Made by a program: the position numbers and the translations under genes | Shown here: positions 52,750 to 60,571 of the stretch, piece by piece | How the letters are laid out: every line of letters starts with the position of its first letter | Numbering within the stretch: the first letter of the stretch is position 1 | NCBI RefSeq assembly: GCF_002727185.1 | Contig: NZ_NIZW01000001.1 | Span: 558,001-622,000 of the forward strand | DNA length: 64,000 nucleotides | Origin: Rhodopirellula bahusiensis | Lineage (GTDB): Bacteria > Planctomycetota > Planctomycetia > Pirellulales > Pirellulaceae | Direction: 5' to 3' | The notes under the pieces: generated by a model | What the model was told of the DNA's origin: nothing | The model's input: the letters and a program-made list of their open reading frames with translations, nothing else | Databases searched by the model: none

Positions 52750-54603
52750 TCATTCGGCGGGAACGCGATGCAGCATCATCAGCCGAATCTCCACGCCTCG
52801 AGGCTCACCATCCTCGCCCATGATTCTTGGGCAGGTCAATGAGAGGCGTCCGCTGCCCTCCGACAAATCGATCCGGCCGAGCGACAACTTCTCCCAGTGC
52901 TTCTCATCGCTCTCCGCCCGCGCCGATCGGTCTTTGTCCAAGTGAATCGGTCCCGAAGGATTCGCCACGGTCACCTCTGAGCCGATTGTCGCCGTCGAAT
53001 CACCTTGCCTCCATTCCAAATTCAGCTTTGTCCCCACCGCCGACTCGGGACAAGCGTAGTACAGCTCAACCTCGAATTGCCCCTTCGCCAGCACGTCAAC
53101 ATCCCACGTGATTGCATCGTCGGTGGAATGCCAATTGGTCATGTAGCTGCTGTTGGGAAACCGATTGCTGCGGCGAATCTCGCCAGTCGCCTGGGCATCG
53201 CGAGCCGGCAGCTGCGTCCAAGCGTGCTCGGGGTGCCCGACAGGAAACACCTGTTCCTCGGAATGATTCCGCCCACGAGGCTTTGTTTCCACCGCCCATT
53301 CTTCAAGAGCCCGTTTGAAACGAGCCGCTGCAACGGGCTTGGTCTTGGCAATGGATCGGGTCTCCCCCGGATCGGCCTCCAAATCAAACAGGTCGCCGTT
53401 TTGGTGATAGCGATATTGGTTTGATCGAACGCTGAGTTTTCCTTTCCAAGCGGTGAAGATCAAACGGCGTGCGGGCTCGGTTTGTGGGTCGACCAAAGCA
53501 TCCCGCAGCGAGATACCATCCAGCGGTCCAGCGATGCCTCCCACCTCCACGTCGCAAAGATCCGCCAGAGTCGGCAGCAAATCAATCGCTCCCGCGATTC
53601 CACCAACGGTTTGCCCCGCCTTGAGTTTGGCGGGGTATCGAATCAGACACGGGGAGCGCAACCCGCCTTCATGAACAGCGCCTTTGCGACCTCTTAACCC
53701 GCCGTTGAACCGAGACCCGTTGGGCCCGTTGTCACAAAAGAACACGACGATCGTGTTTTGAGATAGCGATAATCGCTCCAAGGCGTCAAGCAAGCGTCCA
53801 ATGTTGTCGTCAATATTCTCGCAAAGAGCGAGCGCTGCCCGCGTGTGCTGCACATCTTCCTTCTTTGCATTCTCTGGCCTCGGGTCGGGCACAATCTCCT
53901 TGCCTTCGAATTCTTTCCAATCTTCATTGGGAACCTGCATCGGTGAATGGGGTGTATTCAGCGGCAGATAAACCAGAAACGGGTTCTCACGAGGTTGTTC
54001 CATGAACTCGATCGCGTGCTGCGTGAGGTCATCCACGATGAAGCCATCTCCCTCCACAATTTCTCCGTTGTGTTCCAACATCGGCGAAAAATAGTTGCCC
54101 CAGTGCCCGCTACAGAAACCGTAGAACTCCTCAAATCCGCGAGCGTTGGGATGATACGGAGCCTGCATTCCTGAGTGCCATTTCCCAAACGCCGCCGTGG
54201 CATAGCCGGCGTCCTGGAACGCATCGCCAATGGTCCGCTCAGCGACGTCAAACCGCTCGCCTCCCGCCGAGGTGCTGAACACGCCCGTCCGAGTGTGATA
54301 GCGGCCCGTCAGAAACTCCGCTCGAGTCGGCGAGCAAACCGCACACACGTAGAAGTTTTTGATCTGCACGCCATCCCTAGCCAGCGAATCGATGTGCGGT
54401 GTTTGCAGGTTCGGATTGCCATGCAAACTGAGATCTCCCCAACCCTGGTCGTCGGTCAAAACAACCAGCACATTCGGTCGCGAATCAGCCTGAGCCTGTG
54501 CACAGGTCGCAACGCAAACGAAAACCGAAACCAACAACGACCAAACAAGATTTTTGCGAACGAGGGGAATGACGCGCACTATCGACCTTTGCACCAGTGA
54601 CAT
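52750..54603 (-). CDS. Secreted formylglycine-dependent sulfatase
   Basis: 617 residues with a signal peptide (NLVWSLLVSVFVCVATCAQA). The catalytic CSPTR motif, C90 converted to formylglycine, is in CAVCSPTRAEFLTGRYHTRT. Metal-binding acids are in LTDDQGWGDLS (D51, D52), and later patches (FGKWHSG, FFCDNGPNG) fit type I arylsulfatases. The last ~130 residues after the sulfatase core form a beta-rich domain of possible carbohydrate-binding type. Marine planctomycetes use many such enzymes on sulfated algal polysaccharides. It is divergent from the sugar-nucleotide gene pair at 54807, which could use the released sugars. Confidence 0.93.
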   Translation of the reverse strand: MSLVQRSIVRVIPLVRKNLVWSLLVSVFVCVATCAQAQADSRPNVLVVLTDDQGWGDLSLHGNPNLQTPHIDSLARDGVQIKNFYVCAVCSPTRAEFLTGRYHTRTGVFSTSAGGERFDVAERTIGDAFQDAGYATAAFGKWHSGMQAPYHPNARGFEEFYGFCSGHWGNYFSPMLEHNGEIVEGDGFIVDDLTQHAIEFMEQPRENPFLVYLPLNTPHSPMQVPNEDWKEFEGKEIVPDPRPENAKKEDVQHTRAALALCENIDDNIGRLLDALERLSLSQNTIVVFFCDNGPNGSRFNGGLRGRKGAVHEGGLRSPCLIRYPAKLKAGQTVGGIAGAIDLLPTLADLCDVEVGGIAGPLDGISLRDALVDPQTEPARRLIFTAWKGKLSVRSNQYRYHQNGDLFDLEADPGETRSIAKTKPVAAARFKRALEEWAVETKPRGRNHSEEQVFPVGHPEHAWTQLPARDAQATGEIRRSNRFPNSSYMTNWHSTDDAITWDVDVLAKGQFEVELYYACPESAVGTKLNLEWRQGDSTATIGSEVTVANPSGPIHLDKDRSARAESDEKHWEKLSLGRIDLSEGSGRLSLTCPRIMGEDGEPRGVEIRLMMLHRVPAE

Positions 54604-54806
54604 GGAACCGAACTCCGCAAAAGCAGAAGAACTGACACAGTCCTCCCAGACGGAACGCCAACAGGATAGCTGACCGGATTCACCGTGGGGGAATCTGCAC
54701 TTGGACCACTCGATATGTGCGATCCGGTGGCGGTCCTAGGCACCTCGACTATTCTGTGGGTCGACGCATCCAATCATGGCCTTTTCCTTTTCTCAAAGAT
54801 CGATCC

Positions 54807-55709
54807 ATGCGAGTTCGAAAAGCGGTCATCACCGCCGCGGCCCCCAACCAAAACACTCTCCCGCTGCAACGTTTGGTGGATGGTTCGGGCGAGGAAAAAA
54901 CAGCTCTACAGCTGATCGTCGAGGAAACGCTTTCGGCGGGCGTGGAAGAGATCTGCGTCGTGATCCAGCCTGGCGACGAGGACAACTACCGCAAAGCCGC
55001 TGGTGGCTCACTCGGCAACCTCCAATTCGTTCACCAGGAACGACCGCTGGGCTACGCCGACGCGATCCTGCGAGCCGAATCGTTTTGCGGCGACGACGCT
55101 TTCTTGCATTTGGTAGGCGACCACCTGTATTTGTCGGCAACAACCAAAAGCTGCGCGTCTCAATTGATCGAAATGGCCGAGCAACACGCCTGCCCGGTCT
55201 CTGCTGTCCAGTCCACTCGCGAACATCGCCTGCCGTACTTTGGCATCGTCGCGGGAGCCAGCGTGCCGCGATTCGATGGTTTGTATGACGTTCGCACAGT
55301 CGTCGAGAAACCAACCCCAACGCTCGCCGAACAATCGCTGATCACGCCGGGACTGCGAAGCGGATACTACCTCGGCTACTTCGGAATGCACGTCCTAACG
55401 CCCGCCGTCATGGAATGCTTGCACGAGGTCGTGGACGACAAGAGCATGGAACGCCCTTCCCTTTCCGATGCGATGGCCAAACTGCCTCACCGCGGAAAGT
55501 ACCTCGCGTATCAACTGCATGGGCGTCGCTACAACATTGGTGAACAGTACGGCGTTTTGATCGCTCAGTTGGCAATCGGACTGTCGGGACGCGATCGAGA
55601 CCTGTTGCTGACCGAGCTTGTCGAACTCCTTGCCACACGAGCGGAACAGCCAGTCACGGCGGGGATTGAACCATCGGCGGAATCATCCTCGACGGAAGGA
55701 TCCAACTGA
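54807..55709 (+). CDS. Nucleotidyltransferase-fold protein, GalU/RmlA-like, with altered signature
   Basis: The ATG at 54807 (MRVRKAVITAAAPNQNTLPL) gives 300 residues. The fold is that of GalU-like sugar-phosphate nucleotidyltransferases: IVEETLSAGVEEICVVIQPG, the RPLGYADAILRA loop, a HLVGDHLY segment in place of the usual GDD, and VEKPTP. However, the N-terminal signature normally reading GxGTRxLPxTKxxPK is here AAAPNQNTLPLQRLV, without the Gly-rich loop, Arg or first Lys. It may have lost catalysis or changed specificity. TGATG at 55707-55711 couples it to the kinase-nucleotidyltransferase fusion gene downstream, so a partner or regulatory role is possible. Confidence 0.78.
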   Translation: MRVRKAVITAAAPNQNTLPLQRLVDGSGEEKTALQLIVEETLSAGVEEICVVIQPGDEDNYRKAAGGSLGNLQFVHQERPLGYADAILRAESFCGDDAFLHLVGDHLYLSATTKSCASQLIEMAEQHACPVSAVQSTREHRLPYFGIVAGASVPRFDGLYDVRTVVEKPTPTLAEQSLITPGLRSGYYLGYFGMHVLTPAVMECLHEVVDDKSMERPSLSDAMAKLPHRGKYLAYQLHGRRYNIGEQYGVLIAQLAIGLSGRDRDLLLTELVELLATRAEQPVTAGIEPSAESSSTEGSN

Positions 55710-58700
55710 TGCCGGAACTACGCTCCATGAACTCGTTGATTGAAACGATCACCACCGATCAAGCCGACTTGCGAGACCGGTCGCTCGAATCGTTGGTGGA
55801 AAACGCCTCGCTGGCTGAGTTGCTCGACCACATCGAGGAACTGGATCGCTTTCGTCGCCAAGAAAAGAACCTTTATCAGCGTGTGCGAGCGTTGTTCTTT
55901 CTGTCAGCGATCTATCGCTACCACCTTCCTCCACGACTGGATCAATCCAAGTCAGGCAGCATTCCGTTCGAGGGCTACGAACATCTTCTCGGAAGACGTT
56001 TTCAAGAAGCGATTGATGACTTCCTCGAAGTCCAATCTGCCAATGGCCCCAGTGATTCGCTCTCCAGCGCTCTCGCGTCCGCTTACCACGAACTGGGTTT
56101 TCAAACGCTGGCCGATCAAGTCCGCCATAGCGTTCGCACCGTTCGCGGTAACCAGTGGATGTTCCGTTTGGGGCATGTCGCCGAACATCCACTCCGAATT
56201 CGCAAAGAGCTCCTGCCCACTGAAAACACCCCGCATGTCTCGCCAGTGTTGAAAGAAACCACGGCCGTGCGAATGGATGTCTCGCATTCGGCTTGGAGCG
56301 ATATTTTCTTTTTGGGAATGGATTACCCCGAAGGCGCACGAGTCATCAACGTTTCCGTCGACCTGGGTGTTCGCGGACGCGACAATGAGGTTCGGCCGCC
56401 AATCGAAACCTATTTGCGAGTGATTGATCAACCGGTGTTTCGCTTGGTCAGCGTCGACCTCAACGCCAGCGTCGAAGTCACGACGGTCGCTGAGATGTTC
56501 GATTTCGCCAGAGACTACCTGGGACTACTCAAAGCCGCCGTGATCGCGGCCGGCGTCGTTCCTCCGGGCTTGGAAGGCTGCGGGTCCGACATGGCCTCGC
56601 TGCTCGAACGCGTCGTCGGTCGTGGCAAAGGCTTGGAACTGGTCTCCAAGATCAACGACATTCCCAAAGGTTCACGACTCGCCGTTTCGACCAACTTGCT
56701 CGGTTCGCTGATCAGCAATTTGATGCGAGCAACCGGCCAGATTCAATCACTTCAAGGTGAGCTCACCGAACCCGATCGACGCCTGATCGCCGCTCGTGCG
56801 ATCCTCGGTGAATGGATCGGCGGTAGCGGAGGCGGATGGCAAGATTCCGGCGGAGTATGGCCCGGCATCAAACTCATCTGCGGCCAGACTTCCGGCGAGG
56901 AAGATCCCGAGTTCGGCATCAGCCGTGGGCGTCTGATGCCCGACCATGAAGTCCTCGGTGAAGATCGAATCAGCACCGACGCCCGACAAAAACTGCAAGA
57001 TTCGTTGGTCGTCGTGCACGGCGGGATGGCCCAAAACGTCGGTCCAATTTTAGAGATGGTCACCGAGCACTACCTCGTTCGTGGACGAGAACAATGGATC
57101 GGTCGCCAAGAGGCGATGACGATTTACGACGAAGTGGTCGACGCACTGCAACAGGGTGACATCCGTCGCCTCGGTTCGCTGACGACCAAGAACTTCGAAG
57201 GTCCGCTGCAGACCATCATTCCCTGGGCGACCAATCGGTTCACCGATGTGATGATCCAGCGTTGCCGTGAGCAGTACGGGGATCTGTTTTGGGGATTCTG
57301 GATGCTGGGTGGCATGTCCGGCGGCGGCATGGGTTTCATCTTTGACCCCACCATCAAACAAACTGCACAGGATTGGCTCAGTCAAGAAATGGTGTCGGTC
57401 AAACGGGAATTGGAAACCGCCCTGCCGTTCGCGATGGATCCGGTTGTCTACGATTTCCAAATCAACGACCACGGAACTTTCGCGGAGTTGCTGCCTGCCC
57501 AGTCCGCTGTTTTGCCACAGAAGTATTACGCTTTGATGATGCCCAAGTGGCTTCGCAAACCGCTGCGTGAATTGTCACCTCAAACCCGCGAAGAACTGGC
57601 CGGCATTTCGCGACGCTGCAGCGACCCGAACGACCGCGACGCCGACGCGGCATTGCTGCTTCGAAGCGTTCTGCCATCGGACAACCAAGCCGCTGGTAAG
57701 AAGAAGGACAATCCGAAAACAGACCATGATTCGCTTGCCGCGATTCTAAAACGAAGTGGGTTTGACCGGGCCCAACATGAACAGATCCGCGCTGACATGC
57801 GAGCAGGAAAGTTTGGTTTGGCTGCCAACCGACTTTCTCGTGACCTCAAAATCACCGACGTCGCTGAAACCCATGTCACCGACGCTCGTGATGGTTTGGA
57901 CGACCGCTTGGCGGACATCGGTTCCAAGGCCATTGCCGACGGACAAATCGGAGTCATCACGTTGGCGGCGGGTGTCGGAAGCCGCTGGACACAAGGCGCC
58001 GGCGTTTGCAAAGCCCTGCATCCGTTTCACCGGTTTGCCGGCAAGCATCGAAGCTTTCTCGAAATACACCTCGCGAAAAACCGGGCTGCCACGTCGCAAC
58101 ACGGCGGCGTGATCCCACACGTCATCACGACCAGCTGGATGACCGACGAAGCAATCCGCACCGTTTTGGATCGCACACGAAACTACGGCCACCATGGGCC
58201 GGTGCATGTCTCCAGCGGACGAAGTGTTGGATTGCGAATGGTTCCGATGGTTCGAGACCTGCATTTCCTTTGGGAAGAAACCGCTCAACAGGTCCTGGAC
58301 CAACAACAACAAAAGATGCGTGAAAGTGCCCGATCAGCGATCGCCAATTGGGCCGAGCAAACCGGGGAAGGTTCAGACTACACCGACAACGTCGCTGCAC
58401 AGTGCGTGCACCCAGTTGGACACTGGTACGAAGTCCCGAACCTGTTCCGAAATGGAACCCTGTCTCAGCTTCTTCGCGACCAACCATCACTTCGCTACCT
58501 GATGTTGCATAACATCGACACTCTGGGGGCCAACGTGGACCCGGCGTTGTTTGGTTTGCACATCGAATCCGGAGCCACGCTCAGCTACGAAGTCATCCCG
58601 CGCCGCCTGGAAGATCGGGGTGGCGGTCTGGCCCTGGTTGCTGGTCGCCCGAGACTGGTCGAAGGTCTCGCGATGCCCGACGAACGAATCGAGTTTGGGC

Positions 58701-59077
58701 TTAAGTATTACAACTCGATGACGACGTGGATCGACATTGATGCCTTGCTGGAATCGTTTGGCTTGGATCGCGACTCACTCAAAGATGCGTCTGCCGTTGA
58801 CACCGCGGTTCGCGAAATGGCCGCTCGCTTGCCGACTTACATCACGCTCAAAGAAGTCAAGAAACGTTGGGGTCACGCTCAAGAAGACGTGTTCCCAGTC
58901 GCCCAATTCGAAAAACTATGGGGCGACATGACGACGCTTTCGGACATCGACAGTCGGTTCATTGTGACCCCCATGCGTCGCGGTCAGCAACTCAAAGAAC
59001 CCAGCCAACTCGATGGCTGGAACCGAGACGGAGGCTCCGCCTACGTCGATGCCCTCTGCAAATGGAACGAGTCCTGA
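55709..59077 (+). CDS. Bifunctional-looking GHMP sugar kinase - UDPGP nucleotidyltransferase fusion
   Basis: 1122 residues. After a ~185-residue N-terminal region, residues ~187-560 look like a fucokinase-type GHMP kinase: VSHSAWSDIFFLG (191-203), GSRLAVSTNLLGS (321-333), GGSGGGWQDSGG (371-382) and GGMSGGGMGF (534-543). Residues ~745-1100 match UDPGP-family uridylyltransferases: LAAGVGSRW...K (752-768), NIDTLGANVDP (935-945), a GGGLALVAGRPRLVE patch, and YYNSMTTWIDIDAL near 1000. It should phosphorylate a sugar at C1 and join it to a nucleotide, probably UTP. The Fkp enzyme of Bacteroides has the opposite domain order. The UDPGP part is firm; the kinase part rests on motif matches; the sugar is unknown. 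Confidence 0.8.
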   Translation: MPELRSMNSLIETITTDQADLRDRSLESLVENASLAELLDHIEELDRFRRQEKNLYQRVRALFFLSAIYRYHLPPRLDQSKSGSIPFEGYEHLLGRRFQEAIDDFLEVQSANGPSDSLSSALASAYHELGFQTLADQVRHSVRTVRGNQWMFRLGHVAEHPLRIRKELLPTENTPHVSPVLKETTAVRMDVSHSAWSDIFFLGMDYPEGARVINVSVDLGVRGRDNEVRPPIETYLRVIDQPVFRLVSVDLNASVEVTTVAEMFDFARDYLGLLKAAVIAAGVVPPGLEGCGSDMASLLERVVGRGKGLELVSKINDIPKGSRLAVSTNLLGSLISNLMRATGQIQSLQGELTEPDRRLIAARAILGEWIGGSGGGWQDSGGVWPGIKLICGQTSGEEDPEFGISRGRLMPDHEVLGEDRISTDARQKLQDSLVVVHGGMAQNVGPILEMVTEHYLVRGREQWIGRQEAMTIYDEVVDALQQGDIRRLGSLTTKNFEGPLQTIIPWATNRFTDVMIQRCREQYGDLFWGFWMLGGMSGGGMGFIFDPTIKQTAQDWLSQEMVSVKRELETALPFAMDPVVYDFQINDHGTFAELLPAQSAVLPQKYYALMMPKWLRKPLRELSPQTREELAGISRRCSDPNDRDADAALLLRSVLPSDNQAAGKKKDNPKTDHDSLAAILKRSGFDRAQHEQIRADMRAGKFGLAANRLSRDLKITDVAETHVTDARDGLDDRLADIGSKAIADGQIGVITLAAGVGSRWTQGAGVCKALHPFHRFAGKHRSFLEIHLAKNRAATSQHGGVIPHVITTSWMTDEAIRTVLDRTRNYGHHGPVHVSSGRSVGLRMVPMVRDLHFLWEETAQQVLDQQQQKMRESARSAIANWAEQTGEGSDYTDNVAAQCVHPVGHWYEVPNLFRNGTLSQLLRDQPSLRYLMLHNIDTLGANVDPALFGLHIESGATLSYEVIPRRLEDRGGGLALVAGRPRLVEGLAMPDERIEFGLKYYNSMTTWIDIDALLESFGLDRDSLKDASAVDTAVREMAARLPTYITLKEVKKRWGHAQEDVFPVAQFEKLWGDMTTLSDIDSRFIVTPMRRGQQLKEPSQLDGWNRDGGSAYVDALCKWNES

Positions 59078-59112: not shown

Positions 59113-60018
59113 TCACCAATCCTCGGTAGGCTCACTCAACAGTGCGTCGCCGAGTAAGAACCATCCGATGACGCCGAGCAAAATCACTGCAAAAGCGACC
59201 GCGATAGAGACTCGCATGAACGTCGGTCGATTCTTCAGCCAAACGTCAGGGATCGAGATGCAAGTCGGCAACAGAAGGATCAACCCGTACAACCAAGCGG
59301 GATGCTCCTCATAGGTATAAAACCGACCGGTTGCCGTGGTGCTCGCCGCTAACAAGAGCACGGCTGGAAACAGCCTGCCGATGTTTGACTTGGACATCAA
59401 CGAAGCTGCGATGGCAAAAACGAACGTCGCCACCAAAGCACTCACCATCCACTCCGCCAAACCACCGTAAGCACTGGCGGCCAACAGCGTGGGCGCGACC
59501 AAACCAGCTAAAGCAACCCACAGCACCCAGGACGCTGCACCGTTTCGTCGCATTCGGTCCAACGACCAAATATTGATCAAGGTGGCCCCGGCAACGGACG
59601 CCATCCAAGGACGATGAAGCGGCAACATATCCGTCCAACCATCGCCGGTGGGCATGGTCCACATCGCCGTGGCGATCGATCCCAATCCCGCGACCAACCA
59701 CCAAAACCCAAAGTGATTCTTGGCGTCGATGGATGGATCTTTTGCAGGTGCCCAAGAACACCCCACAAGCAGCAGCGATGAAACAAAGATCGGTGCCAAG
59801 ACGATTTGCCAAGACTCGAGGGCCGACCAATCCAGTTCTTGCCTCGCTAGCATGCAGGCAGCCACTGCCGAGGACCAACCCAGCACCGCAAGCATCGCTG
59901 GCACGCGTTCCTGACCAACTGTCAGCTTGGATCGCTGAAACGCCCAAGCACCAATGACAAACGCCAGCGACAGGATCGCTGGCGTCATCACAGACCAAAG
60001 TAGAATTTGTGTTTCCAC
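59113..60018 (-). CDS. Hypothetical polytopic membrane protein
   Basis: GTG at 60018 is preferred because it starts four bases after the YceI stop; a longer frame from 60057 would overlap YceI. About 301 residues with many hydrophobic segments, such as MTPAILSLAFVIGAWAF, VPAMLAVLGWSSAVAACML, IVLAPIFVSSLLLVGCSW, FWWLVAGLGSIATAMWTM and VSIAVAFAVILLGVIGWFLL. Around nine helices are likely. No family recognised. It is close behind yceI and probably in its operon, so it may act in the envelope, but that is only context. Confidence 0.65.
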   Translation of the reverse strand: METQILLWSVMTPAILSLAFVIGAWAFQRSKLTVGQERVPAMLAVLGWSSAVAACMLARQELDWSALESWQIVLAPIFVSSLLLVGCSWAPAKDPSIDAKNHFGFWWLVAGLGSIATAMWTMPTGDGWTDMLPLHRPWMASVAGATLINIWSLDRMRRNGAASWVLWVALAGLVAPTLLAASAYGGLAEWMVSALVATFVFAIAASLMSKSNIGRLFPAVLLLAASTTATGRFYTYEEHPAWLYGLILLLPTCISIPDVWLKNRPTFMRVSIAVAFAVILLGVIGWFLLGDALLSEPTEDW

Positions 60019-60022
60019 GGTC

Positions 60023-60571
60023 TTATCGCTTGAAGACCAATAGAGTTTGGATGGCAACCTTGTCGTTGATCTTGCCCTTGCCGTAGGTCATGCCCCACTT
60101 GGTTCGATCGATGTCAAAGTTGGCAGCCAAGACCAGCATCTCTTCCGTCAACTTGGGCATCGACGGGATCGTGACCTCGACCGTTTTCCCAAGCATTGTC
60201 AGATTCCCGACAATGTTCACCGTGTCTTTCTTTGGGTCATGTGCGATCTTGGTCGACTCGAACGTGATCTTGGGGTGCTTGCGAACGTCAAAGAAGTCAG
60301 GGTTCTTCAAGTGGTTGGTCAACTTGTCATCGTCGGACCAAAGACTTGTCGCATCAATCTCAATCTTGAGCGAGCCCTTGCTGGGGTCCTCGACATTCAA
60401 CTTGACGTCCGCGGTGAACTTCTTGAAGCCACCATCATGCTTGCCATCCGGCTTCGCACCGACGAAAGAGATCTTCGACTTTTCCGTATCCAAAGTTGGT
60501 TGTTCCTCAGCGGAACCAACCACGGAAGAAACGCAAACCAGCGTCAACATCAAGGCAACACGTTGCAACAT
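60023..60571 (-). CDS. YceI family secreted protein
   Basis: The start at 60571 gives a signal peptide (MLQRVALMLTLVCVSSVVGS) and 182 residues; the frame extends 21 codons upstream without signal character. The mature part matches YceI/lipocalin-like proteins: LDTEKSKISFVGAK, DGKHDGGFKKFTADVKLN, FFDVRKHPKITFEST and GNLTMLGKTVEVT. Family members bind isoprenoid-like lipids in the periplasm. Followed within a few bases by a membrane protein gene on the same strand, so probably cotranscribed. Confidence 0.92.
   Translation of the reverse strand: MLQRVALMLTLVCVSSVVGSAEEQPTLDTEKSKISFVGAKPDGKHDGGFKKFTADVKLNVEDPSKGSLKIEIDATSLWSDDDKLTNHLKNPDFFDVRKHPKITFESTKIAHDPKKDTVNIVGNLTMLGKTVEVTIPSMPKLTEEMLVLAANFDIDRTKWGMTYGKGKINDKVAIQTLLVFKR

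Follow-up and report, generated by a model that had tools for sequence, protein, structure and literature searches.

What does a protein do in which a kinase of the GHMP family is followed, in the same chain, by a UDPGP-type nucleotidylyltransferase? Such a gene is located in a 64,000-nucleotide stretch of the Rhodopirellula bahusiensis genome (contig NZ_NIZW01000001.1, positions 558,001 to 622,000; hereafter the window), and its start overlaps by one base the stop codon of a gene for a GalU-fold protein (TGATG). We propose, with moderate confidence, that the fusion is a bifunctional sugar-activating enzyme with a GalU-fold subunit, converting a sugar to sugar-1-phosphate and then to nucleoside diphosphate (NDP)-sugar. 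The activities, the class of sugar and the role of the partner that we infer would combine as follows. The kinase module would bind the free sugar in the manner of FKP (L-fucokinase/GDP-fucose pyrophosphorylase), the substrate having hydroxyls resembling those of L-fucose or D-arabinose, and would phosphorylate the anomeric carbon (C1). The sugar-1-phosphate would be passed to the UDPGP module and coupled with a nucleoside triphosphate (NTP), yielding NDP-sugar and pyrophosphate, while the GalU-fold partner may bind the sugar phosphate or the complex and tune the fusion.

Domain Architecture of the Fusion

The gene pair and the modules of the fusion are as follows.

54807..55709, plus strand: partner gene, GalU-fold protein, 300 amino acids (aa) from ATG; the listed open reading frame (ORF) starts at GTG 54717
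55709..59077, plus strand: kinase-nucleotidylyltransferase fusion, 1122 aa; alternative start at 55727
55730..56248, plus strand: N-terminal helical domain, residues about 8-180, by structure match to the FKP of B. fragilis (BfFKP)
56246..57499, plus strand: FKP-type GHMP kinase module, residues about 180-597, by profile and structure matches
57725..59074, plus strand: UDPGP-type nucleotidylyltransferase module, residues 673-1122, by Pfam and structure matches

The predicted model of the kinase module matches FKP, WcbL, galactokinase and mevalonate kinase, and that of the C-terminal module has the UDPGP fold. At the profile level, UDPGP (PF01704) scores 39 bits against a gathering score of 22, GHMP_kinases_C (PF08544) reaches 13.8 bits, below its cut-off of 21, and PF00288, the GHMP P-loop family, has no match at the fusion locus. 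The FKP family NF009948 of NCBIfam matches partially (residues 185-542, 65.9 bits), far under its cut-off of 721. Fucose pyrophosphorylase (PF07959) has no match in the fusion at E 1, nor anywhere in the genome at E 0.001. The helical domain partly aligns with the BfFKP region just ahead of the kinase, which is taken as the FKP linker: in the matches to 9iit_A and 5yys_A, residues 8-596 of the model span, from first to last aligned residue, residues 485-949 of the chain (starting at 485-488), with 433 and 450 aligned residues, respectively, vs. 355 for the kinase part alone.

The first-pass annotation of this locus had described a GHMP kinase fused to a UDPGP module in the order opposite to that of Fkp, and had suggested profile searches of the two halves (GHMP/fucokinase models and PF01704) as well as a structure prediction. 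Its two-module, kinase-first reading agrees with the fold matches of the predicted models, Pfam and NCBIfam, the predicted GHMP fold being of FKP type. Also borne out are the conservation of catalytic residues of both modules across the family alignment and the separateness of the lineage from FKP, as five genomes hold both. The observation itself is confirmed and its interpretation supported in part; the overlapping upstream partner gene was missed.

Kinase Active Site

The following motifs were compared with FKP.

56660..56701, plus strand: rebuilt P-loop IPKGSRLAVSTNLL, residues 318-331, FKP having [IV]PKGSGLGTSSIL (alignment)
56828..56845, plus strand: GGGWQD, residues 374-379, with D379 as the catalytic-base equivalent and Q378 sugar-binding (FKP comparison)
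57017..57034, plus strand: HGGMAQ, residues 437-442, replacing YTGxTR of FKP (alignment)
57302..57328, plus strand: altered GHMP motif 3, MLGGMSGGG, residues 532-540 (alignment)

Residue counts are given below out of 75 aligned family rows or, for a separate protein alignment, out of 121. The fucose-binding and phosphoryl-transfer residues of BfFKP have been assigned (PMC11982464), and R592, W599, D601, E751, Q761 and D762 correspond to R188, W196, D198, E368, Q378 and D379 of the fusion, each in 75/75; the matching Arg, Asp and Asp are described as nearly invariant among FKPs (PMC12732313). The metal-binding serine S719 is retained as S327, and GWQD is present in 120 of 121 proteins, with GWLD in the remaining one. 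T602, which contacts the C3-OH of fucose in BfFKP (PMC11982464), is not retained, being I199 in 75/75 fusions.

The donor side is different. Instead of the FKP loop GSGLGTSS, the P-loop reads GSRLAVST in all 75 rows and all 121 proteins; FKP-like loops for comparison are GSG[LM]GTSS in the five FKPs co-resident with fusions, GSGLGTSS in L020, GSGLGGSS in L028 and GSGLGASS in L030. The arginine of YTGxTR is replaced by Q442 in 73/75 fusions, while it is retained in 7/7 FKPs (L028 has FTGQER), and the lysine of FKP KLxGAGGGG is M532 in 75/75. The earlier assumption of ordinary GHMP motifs is therefore not supported, and the use of ATP is not established.

Three donor-side elements are altered, namely the phosphate loop with its glycines, the arginine of TR and the lysine of motif 3, and this could mean that the module is a pseudokinase that transfers no phosphate but senses free sugar or sugar-1-phosphate and gates the UDPGP module, the fusion then being a regulated pyrophosphorylase only. 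We regard this as unlikely: the altered loop does not drift but is invariant, and R188, E368, S327 and D379, which serve phosphoryl transfer, are retained. Since the sugar side is unchanged and the donor side rebuilt, both invariantly, the donor site is, by the evidence of the alignments, remodelled and not decayed.

Pyrophosphorylase Active Site and Choice of Nucleotide

Three elements of the C-terminal module were located by alignment.

57962..58012, plus strand: nucleotide-binding loop and catalytic Lys, residues 752-768, LAAGVGSRWTQGAGVCK
58220..58222, plus strand: Arg838, aligned with Gln162 of Arabidopsis UGPase, which reads uridine
58508..58531, plus strand: HNIDTLGA, residues 934-941, with metal-binding D937

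UGPase residues that bind the phosphates, metal and sugar are described in PMC5832301 and PMC10470519; by alignment pairing, K768, H905, D937, E985 and K1096 match them and are all invariant, the catalytic Lys/His/Asp/Lys (K768, H905, D937, K1096) being found in 75/75 each. UGPase, USPase and UAGPase share a Gln that contacts uridine (PMC5832301, PMC5609113). At this position, 838, the 75 rows have Arg in 52, Lys in 10, Ala in 6, Gln in 3, Met in 2, Tyr in 1 and something other than these six letters in one, and the 121 proteins have Arg in 92, Lys in 21, Gln in 6, Tyr in 1 and Met in 1. The register is anchored by the invariant R843, and hhalign and MAFFT are concordant. Gln occupies the position in 6/6 short bacterial UDPGP proteins aligned (L032 is gapped there). 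Such relatives of the C-terminal module are found in other planctomycetes (L021, L023-L027), with open frames mostly of 377-419 aa (274 in L024, 513 in L027). With Arg or Lys in most members (62/75; 113/121), the UDP-sugar product is not supported in the form proposed earlier, and the choice of nucleotide is not readable from the family.

The same substitution, together with FKP-like sugar-site residues, would suit a route to GDP-L-fucose (or GDP-D-arabinose), in which a base-switched UDPGP module replaces the guanylyltransferase domain of FKP. This route is improbable. Gln is kept in 3/75 members (6/121 proteins), the remaining catalytic residues are UGP-like, and the route would be redundant in the five genomes where the fusion accompanies a complete FKP (1008-1113 bits, NCBIfam cut-off 721). 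Fusion and FKP are therefore not simple replacements of each other. The complete FKP genes of the fusion-bearing family genomes are L158-L162; in G377 the FKP gene is about 9 kb from the fusion.

Quite unlikely is a kinase module that works without ATP, with a donor lacking a purine, most attractively the pyrophosphate released by the fused pyrophosphorylase, so that the net reaction would be sugar + NTP to NDP-sugar + phosphate. This would account for an unchanged sugar side next to a nucleotide-phosphate side rebuilt about a new, invariant arginine (R323), and for the presence of both modules in a single chain in every member read.

Distribution

The best protein match, at 93%, carries the name Rhodopirellula baltica; the listed relatives number 120, with identities of 66-93%. 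In a sample of the phylum, 52 of 294 genomes had a match at E <=1e-3, and the fusion was judged present in 17 of the 294, the window's own genome included (best E 6e-151 or lower); the remaining matches were lone UDPGP or FKP-like proteins. Two loci with weak kinase matches in this sample (L022, L031) had no frame with the GWQD pattern and were dropped. In a sample of the family, 72/149 genomes had some match and 57/149 a strong match, with E no worse than 2.2e-98, a few of these being contig-end fragments. Among genomes taken one per GTDB species there were at least 563 relatives, part of which may be FKPs, since GSGGGWQD, one of the two search patterns, is also present in FKPs; the fusion is claimed only for the loci read. 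The best 80 of these relatives were all fusions, many of them from metagenome bins, and include records that bear the labels Planctomycetota, Verrucomicrobiota, Kiritimatiellota, Lentisphaerota, Chloroflexota, Acidobacteriota, Armatimonadota and one Nealsonbacteria. The most diverged full-length fusions aligned, L012 (G288) and L013 (G187), have 43-44% identity.

No galactokinase match was found in the window's genome, which contains two PF00288 matches, one GalT-family match and seven other NTP_transferase matches; we take the two PF00288 proteins to be IspE-like and RFAP-synthase-like. That the fusion stands in for galactokinase and uridylyltransferase, making UDP-galactose from galactose, is very improbable: over the 149 family genomes, galactokinase above cut-off is commoner with the fusion (25/57) than without it (17/92; odds ratio 3.4, relatedness uncorrected), the opposite of replacement, and the sugar-site residues are FKP-like. 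A frameshift or chimeric assembly was rejected, the frame being open in 80/80 named loci and the protein recurring in the listed relatives, as was a plain FKP with swapped domains, given the missing PF07959, the different donor motifs and the true FKPs co-resident in 5 genomes examined.

The GalU-fold Partner and Neighbouring Genes

The predicted model of the partner has the GalU fold, and its sugar-1-phosphate-side residues are retained. The galU score is 85.2 bits vs. a cut-off of 326.8. The NTP-binding signature is eroded, ITAAAPNQNTLPLQ instead of xxAAGxGTRxLPxT; where GxGTR is expected, the window copy reads AAAPNQN, and among 71 aligned rows (one without letters there) T is replaced by Q in 63 and R retained in 32. 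The second metal Asp is Asn273, numbered from the ORF start at 54717. Relatives include both eroded and catalytic-looking copies; in this lineage, going by the residues, the partner is probably no longer catalytic. With its sugar-phosphate site kept and catalysis probably gone, it would be likely to stabilise or regulate the fusion. Upstream of its fusion, L013 has a diverged nucleotidyltransferase (36%) with yet another N-terminal signature.

When ORFs of the 80 named loci were clustered, the partner was the sole widely shared real neighbour. Other clusters found in at least 10 loci (up to 74) were interpreted, without being checked singly, as shadow ORFs of the partner and fusion, and rarer neighbours, judged by their sequence starts, were sulfatase-like (9/80 loci), phosphoglycerate-kinase-like (8/80) and other ordinary genes. 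An obligate partner was rejected: of 8 fusion-bearing genomes, selected either for having no visible partner next to the fusion or for having the most diverged fusions, 2 had a partner and 6 did not (completeness 84-88% for four, 90% for two). Around the unlinked partners of 5 genomes, the surrounding genes were common only to some of the five.

In the window, the pair is flanked by a divergent sulfatase gene (52750-54603, minus strand; PF00884, 184 bits) and, just downstream of the fusion, by a gene (59113-60057, minus strand) for a 314-aa protein with no Pfam family above cut-off, probably membrane-bound as judged from its composition. A single promoter-like site was found within the gene for the fusion and none ahead of the pair; such sites are weakly informative for Planctomycetota. 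A PHROGs scan gave no match.

Significance and Comparison with Known Systems

The fusion represents a conserved family in several phyla that probably activates free sugars by a route not yet assigned; its listed relatives are mostly named "UTP--glucose-1-phosphate uridylyltransferase", "galactokinase/mevalonate kinase-like predicted kinase" or hypothetical. It would be a second solution to the kinase-pyrophosphorylase fusion, built on a GHMP kinase whose donor site is rebuilt yet strictly kept and accompanied by a GalU-fold protein that is seemingly losing catalysis while the pair persists. Such an enzyme could serve nucleotide-sugar production. Among the open-access papers listed by literature searches, none describes such a fusion in its title or the start of its abstract, and the enzyme names had no match in a study of gene essentiality in Planctopirus (PMC10632474).

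With UGPase, USPase and UAGPase the C-terminal module shares the fold and the catalytic Lys/His/Asp/Glu/Lys set; in the fusion, however, the uridine-reading Gln is mostly replaced, the module sits behind a kinase, and, in comparison with short bacterial UDPGP members, there is an insert that falls between about residue 848 and about residue 898. The window's partner differs from GalU and YngB in not keeping the GxGTR signature and the second metal Asp. Plant arabinokinase and USP are members of the GHMP and UDPGP families, respectively. In plants, a sugar 1-kinase, arabinokinase, supplies the UDP-sugar pyrophosphorylase USP (PMC12281597), but these are separate proteins and the kinase specificity is other. 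The zebrafish glucuronokinase/putative UDP-GlcA pyrophosphorylase is described as combining a GHMP 1-kinase and a UTP-using nucleotidylyltransferase in one chain for free-sugar salvage; there, however, a nucleotidylyltransferase of the bacterial GT-A type forms the N-terminal part and the kinase the C-terminal part (PMC3938481). Finally, FKP/Fkp of B. fragilis and Arabidopsis likewise joins a sugar 1-kinase of the same GHMP subgroup to a nucleotidylyltransferase, and shares with the fusion the sugar-side and transfer residues and the helices ahead of the kinase. In FKP the pyrophosphorylase precedes the kinase (PMC11982464), whereas in the fusion the order is reversed, a UDPGP fold stands in place of PF07959, and the donor-side motifs are rebuilt.
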